Source of the DNA: Candidatus Gottesmanbacteria bacterium RIFCSPLOWO2_01_FULL_39_12b
GTDB taxonomy: Bacteria; Patescibacteriota; Microgenomatia; 2-02-FULL-39-11
Length of the DNA stretch: 48,704 nt
NCBI GenBank assembly: GCA_001780955.1
Contig: MFJR01000007.1
Span: 252,177-300,880, forward strand
Direction: 5' to 3'
Under the pieces are notes generated by a model. It was not told where the DNA came from and did no database searches. It saw nothing but the letters and a program-made list of their open reading frames with translations. Each line of letters starts with the position of its first letter. Positions within the stretch are counted from its first letter, which is position 1. A program made the translations under genes and the position numbers. This document shows positions 15,181 to 16,444 of the stretch, piece after piece.

Positions 15181-15258
15181 ATTTTTTATAGCTTATGTTA
15201 CTTTTATATTAAAGAATATCTAAATTGTATACAAGTAGAACTTCATAGTATAAAAGCC

Positions 15259-15276
15259 TGAGAGATTATTCTCTCA
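15259..15276 (-). terminator. Hairpin followed by T-rich tract on the minus strand, downstream of tRNA-Lys
   Basis: TGAGAGA-TTAT-TCTCTCA; minus-strand downstream GGCTTTTATA. Confidence 0.45.
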
Positions 15277-15298
15277 TCGAACCTAGCAAAAATTGTGG

Positions 15299-15325
15299 TA
15301 CCTGGGGACTACCTGGGGACGGTCC
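15299..15325. repeat. Tandem 11-bp repeat ending in a short palindrome
   Basis: TACCTGGGGAC TACCTGGGGAC GGTCC. Confidence 0.6.
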
Positions 15326-15371
15326 TTTAATATACGATTGCAAAGCCTCAAATCAAACGAAATTAATTTAG

Positions 15372-15443
15372 TGAGCCCGGCGCGAGTCGAACGCGCAACC
15401 AACAGCTTAAAAGGCTGCTGCTCTGCCATTGAGCTACAGGCCC
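15372..15443 (-). tRNA. tRNA-Lys (anticodon TTT)
   Basis: GGGCCTGTAGCTCAATGGCAGAGCAGCAGCCTTTTAAGCTGTTGGTTGCGCGTTCGACTCGCGCCGGGCTCA folds as a cloverleaf. Confidence 0.93.
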
Positions 15444-15718
15444 ATTGAATTATTATTTTTTATTAACCAACTTATATATTTGTGGCTTTTATATGATTTT
15501 AACTTCTTCTCTCGTAATCTTGCATCATCAATATTATCAAACGTTTCTTTATATACTAAATTATATGTTTTCAATACTCTAGTTGATCTTGTATGCCCAG
15601 CAAGATGCTGTTTTATTCGTCGTGAGAGGTTATTTGTCGAACCAATGTAATATTTACTATTATTTTCATCGGATAATACATAGACCCAACACATTATAAT
15701 ATATTTCTGTTCTGCCAT
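15434..15718 (-). CDS. GIY-YIG nuclease family protein
   Basis: CWVYVLSDENNSKYYIGSTNNLSRRIKQH: GIY-YIG core; 94 aa. Confidence 0.92.
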   Translation of the reverse strand: MAEQKYIIMCWVYVLSDENNSKYYIGSTNNLSRRIKQHLAGHTRSTRVLKTYNLVYKETFDNIDDARLREKKLKSYKSHKYISWLIKNNNSMGL

Positions 15719-15761
15719 TGACCCCGATTAGTCGTTGCTATCGGGGTTGAGCTACAGGCCC
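15707..15761 (-). repeat. Partial tRNA-Lys 5' copy, split by a 25-nt hairpin insertion
   Basis: Minus strand GGGCCTGTAGCTCAA-[CCCCGATAGCAACGACTAATCGGGG]-TCAATGGCAGAACAG versus tRNA GGGCCTGTAGCTCAATGGCAGAGCAG. Confidence 0.9.
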
Positions 15762-15818
15762 TATTTACTTAATAGATTATATCAACATAAGTTTTCGTCA
15801 GCAACTATTTTTTTGGTC

Positions 15819-15847
15819 TTGACAAAAACTGGGAGTAAAACTATGAT
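15819..15847 (+). promoter_or_regulatory. Promoter for superoxide dismutase
   Basis: TTGACA-N17-TATGAT. Confidence 0.75.
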
Positions 15848-15862
15848 AGTTAATAGATAAAT

Positions 15863-16444
15863 ATGAAATACCAATTACCTCTATTAGAATACCCATATAA
15901 TGCTCTTGAGCCATATATTGATGCTCAGACCATGGAAATTCACCACACCAAGCATCATCAGGCATACATTGATAATTTAAATAAGGTATTAGAAAAATAT
16001 CCAAAGATTGAGGGTCAGAAACTGGAAGATCTGTTAAAGAGTCTTAATACTCTTACAATGGATGAGAGAGACAAGAAGATGCTACGTAATCACGGCGCGG
16101 GACACCTCAATCATACTCTATTCTGGCAGATTATGGGGGCCAAAAAAGAACTTGATGAAAAGTTGGTTGCAGAAGTAATTAAGGAATTTGGAACTATTGA
16201 TGAGTTCAAAAAACTCTTCAACCAAACTGCTTTGTCGCATTTTGGCAGCGGTTGGGCCTGGCTAGTGCGTAATAAAGAAGGAAAGCTTGCAATTTATTCT
16301 CTACCCAACCAGGATTCACCATATATTAATGGACACACGCCTCTTATTGGACTGGATGTTTGGGAACATGCCTATTATTTGAAATACCAAAACAGACGTG
16401 CAGATTATATAGCAAACTGGTGGAATGTGTTAAAGCTGATTTAA
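15863..16444 (+). CDS. Superoxide dismutase (Fe/Mn family)
   Basis: HHTKHHQAYIDNLN, GHLNHTLFW, GSGWAWL, DVWEHAYYLKYQNRRADYI. Confidence 0.95.
   Translation: MKYQLPLLEYPYNALEPYIDAQTMEIHHTKHHQAYIDNLNKVLEKYPKIEGQKLEDLLKSLNTLTMDERDKKMLRNHGAGHLNHTLFWQIMGAKKELDEKLVAEVIKEFGTIDEFKKLFNQTALSHFGSGWAWLVRNKEGKLAIYSLPNQDSPYINGHTPLIGLDVWEHAYYLKYQNRRADYIANWWNVLKLI

Follow-up and report, generated by a model that had tools for sequence, protein, structure and literature searches.

Organization of the tRNA-Lys locus

The window analyzed here is the whole stretch of 48,704 nucleotides taken from the genome of Candidatus Gottesmanbacteria bacterium RIFCSPLOWO2_01_FULL_39_12b. Its minus strand carries, in this order, a tRNA promoter, the 5' part of a tRNA-Lys(UUU), a GIY-YIG nuclease ORF and a complete tRNA-Lys (Table 1). 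An earlier reading made from the sequence alone (the sequence-only reading) had recognized the same order of partial copy, ORF and complete tRNA, and in this it was correct. However, the 5' copy is not the plain stretch of 26 nucleotides that it described, as a hairpin of 25 nucleotides splits the copy in the D-loop and the full copy region reads GGGCCTGTAGCTCAA + CCCCGATAGCAACGACTAATCGGGG + TCAATGGCAGAACAG. The hairpin has TCAA on either side (15750-15747 and 15721-15718, minus strand) and the segment beyond it matches the complete tRNA at 14 of 15 positions. The TATAAT box, which is absent from the output of a generic promoter scan, lies 14 nt ahead of nt 1 of the copy.

Table 1. Position of the features identified at the tRNA-Lys locus of the window
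Feature	Position	Strand	Basis
TATAAT, likely -10 box of the original tRNA-Lys promoter	15776..15781	-	agreement with consensus and position
5' copy of tRNA-Lys, nt 1-15, GGGCCTGTAGCTCAA	15747..15761	-	identical to complete tRNA
25-nt hairpin in D-loop of the tRNA-Lys copy, CCCCGATAGCAACGACTAATCGGGG	15722..15746	-	sequence
5' copy continued, tRNA-Lys nt 12-26, TCAATGGCAGAACAG	15707..15721	-	one mismatch to complete tRNA
GIY-YIG nuclease ORF, 86 aa from conserved start	15434..15694	-	PF01541; start from 10 relatives
Complete tRNA-Lys(UUU), anticodon TTT	15371..15443	-	ARAGORN; Rfam, 67.9 bits
Fe/Mn superoxide dismutase (SOD), neighbor outside the element that anchors the empty-site comparison	15863..16444	+	neighbor gene

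The ORF had been proposed to start and stop inside the two tRNA sequences. Its stop is indeed the TAG at nt 8-10 of the complete tRNA-Lys (15436-15434). The ATG at 15718, inside the partial copy, is likewise open and in frame and would give a protein of 94 aa, but it is probably wrong as the start: the start shared with the relatives, ATGTGTTGG at 15694, lies 24 nt downstream and outside the copy, and in eight of ten relatives of the window's lineage a stop codon in frame stands between the hairpin and the conserved start. A start codon within the tRNA copy is therefore possible, but not conserved across this lineage. Since the ORF ends inside the tRNA, RNase P maturation at nt 1 would leave the nuclease mRNA without its stop codon and could limit expression.

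The interval inserted at this tRNA-Lys holds the GIY-YIG ORF and no other gene. The complete tRNA is uninterrupted and is the only close Lys(UUU) match in the source genome, which is 84% complete. An Rfam scan of positions 15200-15900 with E values up to 1 found only tRNA, and the ORF stands alone. A group I intron in the tRNA gene was rejected because no Rfam intron match was obtained and the complete tRNA is uninterrupted, and an integrase-type genomic island because the insert contains only the GIY-YIG ORF and the duplication corresponds to the tRNA 5' end rather than to a 3'-tRNA att site. Pairing of the 5' copy with the 3' strand of the real tRNA at the RNA level does appear in the minimum-energy fold of the whole transcript, but it is not evidence because the acceptor 5' strands are identical. 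A tblastn search with the window protein gave no match in phage or plasmid records, and viral contigs gave weak partial matches only.

Empty sites in related genomes

A relative lacking the element at the tRNA-Lys site was found in the same family. In this genome (G007) SOD and tRNA-Lys(UUU) are divergent neighbors as in the window, nothing is inserted between them, and a TATAAT box lies 13 nt before the intact tRNA-Lys. The spacing of 14 nt in the window versus 13 nt in G007 indicates that the 5' copy occupies the original tRNA position and that the complete tRNA was displaced by 318 bp. A second element, next to a tRNA-Val (L059, genome G009), is missing from three relatives: in G013, of the same genus as G009, a clearly homologous 5' flank leads into one complete tRNA-Val; the layout is the same in G014 and G004, where the flank is less similar. 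The downstream flanks at the empty sites are not conserved close to the tRNA, so that these comparisons fix no right-hand boundary. Presence and absence at the same chromosomal site is thus seen for both elements, as it is for free-standing homing endonucleases.

The nuclease protein

The assignment of the ORF to the GIY-YIG nucleases was confirmed by a PF01541 match (E 4e-15; 56.3 bits, above the curated cut-off of 22.6), and the conserved active-site residues Y5, Y16, G18, R26, H30 and E62 are invariant across 13 relatives. Based on profile searches, the closest solved proteins are PDB 1zg2, 1ywl and 7cq2 (E 3e-13, 7e-12 and 4e-7, respectively), and by these profiles the small proteins linked to tRNAs resemble UPF0213/SLX1 nucleases. 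Like these they are small and consist essentially of the catalytic domain alone, although the SLX1 chains among the profile matches are longer (183-324 aa). SLX1 is a housekeeping resolvase subunit, and SLX1-like nucleases are structure-specific. Since UPF0213 and SLX1 are the nearest proteins by profile, it is plausible that a tRNA-gene arm is recognized as a hairpin or cruciform. A length of about 85 aa with no separate DNA-binding domain is nevertheless unusual for a site-specific homing nuclease, and this counts against a homing role.

Recurrence in the source genome and in its class

The source genome (G000) contains nine PF01541 matches, one of them in a frame of 435 aa read as UvrC (L008). 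Five of the eight small GIY-YIG ORFs have a complete tRNA of the same strand immediately downstream (Lys-TTT, Val-CAC, Asn-GTT, Lys-CTT and Pro-GGG), for which the chance expectation is about 0.2% per ORF, as calculated from the 37 tRNA hits over 1.27 Mb. At the Pro locus a broken upstream copy of its own tRNA is clear, and at the Asn locus the copy is more decayed; there (L006, contig C15 of G000) the 5' tRNA-Asn copy, upstream of the tRNA, seems to contain two successive GC-rich palindromes. At the Val locus (L005, G000:C7:191516-191716) the complete tRNA-Val(CAC) following the ORF is accompanied on both sides by tRNA-Val remnants of different acceptor sequence, and the 3' remnant has a hairpin in its D-loop.

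A survey of 40 related genomes yielded 117 small GIY-YIG ORFs, 71 of them with a tRNA within 400 nt; 87 of the 89 neighboring tRNAs were on the strand of the ORF. For loci with a tRNA downstream, the upstream region was aligned to that tRNA and to tRNAs of other anticodons, and in about half of them it strongly matched the locus's own tRNA from nt 1 onward. The partial copies match the adjacent tRNA and not those of other anticodons, begin mostly at nt 1 and end adjoining the ORF, and GC-rich palindromes interrupt nearly all of the strong-match copies.

Other associations were seen in these genomes. The order tRNA-Arg(TCG), GIY-YIG ORF, tRNA-Lys(CTT) is conserved in many of them (L007, L018, L024, L028, L030, L037, L042 and others) with no recognisable partial copies, possibly as an old fixed element. 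A separate GIY-YIG clade lies just 3' of tRNA-Ser genes of several anticodons (L002, L064, L085, L097, L115), and similar clades follow tRNA-Gln and tRNA-Met.

Distribution, arrangements and phylogeny

Among 80 loci obtained from genomes of named species, the closest two belong to Woesebacteria and Woykebacteria (Patescibacteria). Partial copies were also present at loci in records labelled Bacteroidota, Verrucomicrobiota, Chloroflexota, Acidobacteriota, Bdellovibrionota, Omnitrophota, Elusimicrobiota, Planctomycetota, Kiritimatiellota and Ignavibacteriota. The arrangement is thus present in records from about eleven bacterial phyla, most of them metagenome assemblies, where misbinning of individual contigs is possible; the genome of Indibacter alkaliphilus LW1, which carries the element, comes from an isolate.

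After removal of duplicates 208 distinct proteins remained, 146 of which adjoin a tRNA of the same strand, and 70 of these 146 carry a partial copy of that tRNA. The expectation that homologs lie between partial and complete tRNA genes was borne out by 51 of the 208, which show the arrangement of the window (type a: 5' copy, ORF, complete tRNA). Another 19 are mirror images (type b: complete tRNA, ORF, 3' copy), and 16 of their 3' copies start between nt 2 and 22 and extend to the tRNA end. In a two-sided arrangement (type c: L059, L047, L177, L188 and L258, among others) partial copies flank the ORF/tRNA pair and the same hairpin is present in both; the loops sometimes differ while the stems stay paired (L209, L210, L229). 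At L005, L177, L255 and L258 the acceptor sequence of one outer fragment, read by eye, differs from that of the complete tRNA, as it would if the latter had been imported. Neither outcome that would have refuted the sequence-only reading, homologs lying away from tRNAs or relatives with the fragment as a chance duplication lacking the ORF, occurred in these lineages, but one GIY-YIG clade of 20 proteins of about 95 aa from the same genomes (L043, L056, L071, L081 and 16 more) has no tRNA neighbor. The 76 tRNA-adjacent relatives of the 146 without a recognisable partial copy, and the 62 of the 208 without a tRNA neighbor, count against a homing element.

The copies of type a correspond to 24 anticodons. 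Local tRNA duplications that trapped a GIY-YIG ORF by chance or through misassembly could account for single loci, most hosts being metagenome assemblies, but with dozens of loci, 24 anticodons, many phyla and one isolate genome we consider this explanation hardly credible. In protein trees the tRNA isotype changes 76 times versus 112 when shuffled; arrangement and isotype cluster on the trees beyond chance, yet both change often. These trees, built on about 90 columns and poorly resolved, suggest that a protein lineage favors one tRNA but switches at times.

Of 56 copy-bearing loci of type a, 41 have the ORF ending within the tRNA, 23 of them at nt 8-10 (counts before duplicate removal, for which a start of the copy at tRNA nt 1 was in part a criterion). 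Together with the linkage on the same strand this implies co-transcription, as would be the case for a host or defence nuclease, directed for example at tRNAs or phages, that is co-expressed with tRNAs; the fragments would then be leader or processing signals, and a leader hairpin could regulate translation. We find such a function improbable, since the patchy presence at orthologous sites and the many tRNA types look like insertion and not like a conserved operon; the mirror and two-sided arrangements and the broken ORF at L009 also speak against it.

Hairpins and dispersed palindromes

The hairpin in the 5' copy turns out to be a regular feature of these elements. Of 56 5' copies, 49 contain a perfectly paired stem of 6 bp or longer; such stems occur in 4 of 56 ORF segments of matched length, in 18 of 56 intact tRNAs and in about 10% of shuffled copies. 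In many partial copies the hairpin replaces the anticodon arm; in the lineage of the window it is inserted in the D-loop. This lineage, found in 10 other genomes of the class with 57-67% identity to the window protein, adjoins Lys and Arg tRNAs with similar D-arms, and its hairpin, CCCCGAT..ATCGGGG or a sequence very similar to it, usually has TCAA or TCAG on its flanks. A tRNA-Arg element from another family (L245) has a 25-mer identical to the hairpin of the window.

The palindrome CCCCGA..TCGGGG is also dispersed across these genomes, with 16 occurrences in the source genome and none of a reversed control pattern. An exact 4-bp duplication flanks 15 of 50 distinct palindromes, where 1/256 is expected for each; eight of these duplications are in GIY-YIG/tRNA loci and seven elsewhere. 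The number of palindromes per genome follows the number of GIY-YIG genes (Spearman 0.82, n=27; 0.70 within the family, n=15), a correlation only, obtained with one palindrome family and related genomes.

These data could mean that the hairpins are the real mobile unit, on which the small GIY-YIG protein acts as RAYT does on REP, the tRNA duplication being a by-product; tRNA genes would be targets since their arms fold into hairpins in single-stranded form. The dispersal, the flanking duplications and the correlation all fit such a unit, as do the frequent replacement of an arm instead of plain insertion and the structure specificity of SLX1-like nucleases. We nonetheless regard it as rather unlikely, because by itself it gives no reason for the complete tRNA that accompanies the ORF, eight of the 15 duplications sit within the GIY-YIG/tRNA loci themselves, and the palindrome also occurs in genomes lacking the protein lineage of the window, for which a strict one-to-one tie between that lineage and the CCCCGA palindrome was rejected.

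Palindromes of 17 bp, CCCCGATTAAATCGGGG and variants, with 4-bp flanking duplications were found at L317, L318, L329, L331, L334 and L335 (G000, G254, G322). They are not beside GIY-YIG/tRNA elements and look like a very short dispersed insertion sequence.

A probable homing-type element in tRNA genes

In our judgment the locus is probably a free-standing GIY-YIG element of the homing type, which inserts into a tRNA gene and leaves a complete replacement tRNA. The insertion into a tRNA gene that the sequence-only reading proposed is supported by the anatomy of the locus, by its recurrence with many tRNAs, by presence and absence at orthologous sites and by hairpins in nearly all partial copies; cleavage of the target, mobility of the element and a spread driven by the nuclease we infer. 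According to this model, the resident tRNA gene would survive beside its promoter as a 5' piece broken by a hairpin, with the complete tRNA standing at the far end of the nuclease gene. The nuclease would cut intact tRNA genes within a conserved arm, and repair off the element would install hairpin, ORF and replacement tRNA, after which the hairpin-marked remnant would no longer be a target. By its hairpin the remnant may signal that the resident copy is already taken; alternatively, the hairpin may be what the nuclease handles. The rebuilt tRNA is often both essential and present in one copy, so that loss of the element would be difficult for the host. A point against homing is that the complete tRNA keeps intact arms and the model does not account for its escape from the nuclease of the element.

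Relation to known systems

Dispersed short palindromes, as in REP/RAYT-like systems, are present here. The bacterial REP palindromes are short, dispersed and GC-rich, and in REP/RAYT the mobilizer is a Y1 (HUH) transposase, whereas the gene associated here is a GIY-YIG nuclease. In Allomyces, the insert in the mitochondrial atp6 gene is an endonuclease gene accompanied by a replacement segment of the target gene. Like the element described here it enters a gene that is essential and keeps it functional by providing a substitute for part of it, but its target is a protein-coding gene of a fungal mitochondrion, with no tRNA and no hairpin-marked remnant. Putative target-site duplications have been reported for the palindromic GC clusters of yeast mitochondria (PMC4478555). 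The palindromes studied here share with these clusters and with REP a short, dispersed and GC-rich nature and differ in being mostly 17-25 bp, in the 4-bp duplications of many of them and in their concentration in partial tRNA copies beside GIY-YIG genes.

The nearest documented system is SegB of phages. SegB and its relatives are GIY-YIG free-standing homing endonucleases of T-even phages that adjoin tRNA genes of many isotypes and introduce breaks in them, and microhomology of the tRNA 5' region with the 3' region of segB plays a part in amplification (PMC13096335, which cites Brok-Volchanskaya 2008). The likeness lies in the GIY-YIG domain, the location outside introns and the link to tRNAs. 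SegB is however a phage gene, whereas the setting here is a bacterial chromosome, and the passages on SegB considered here mention neither hairpin-split partial tRNA copies nor arm replacement (PMC13096335). In the literature on GIY-YIG proteins with tRNAs in Patescibacteria or with palindromes we found no description of the arrangement; as coverage was incomplete, novelty is provisional. A bacterial chromosomal element with hairpin-marked split tRNAs is thus apparently undescribed. We class it as a new form of free-standing GIY-YIG homing element, and there is a substantial chance that it deserves a class of its own. More tentatively, and with the odds slightly against it, it could be a new class of mobile element made of a hairpin-bracketed minimal GIY-YIG nuclease and a replacement tRNA, which would split tRNA genes in about eleven phyla, swap one arm of the remnant for a signature palindrome and hold an essential tRNA hostage, the nuclease also driving the tiny dispersed palindromes.

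Small GIY-YIG genes are abundant in the Patescibacteria genomes examined and have no assigned role in the annotation consulted; tRNA-associated elements account for a large share of them. Should the mechanism hold, they would be a bacterial chromosomal counterpart of phage SegB homing, in which the element would stabilize itself by taking over an essential tRNA, and the nuclease may be linked to short mobile palindromes. The mechanism can be tested in cultured carriers, of which Indibacter alkaliphilus is one. In strain LW1 (L209, NZ_ALWO02000052.1, ~970-1850) the unit formed by terminator, GIY-YIG ORF and 3' tRNA-Ala copy is duplicated in tandem, and the two proteins differ by one residue, which points to a recent event in a cultured strain.
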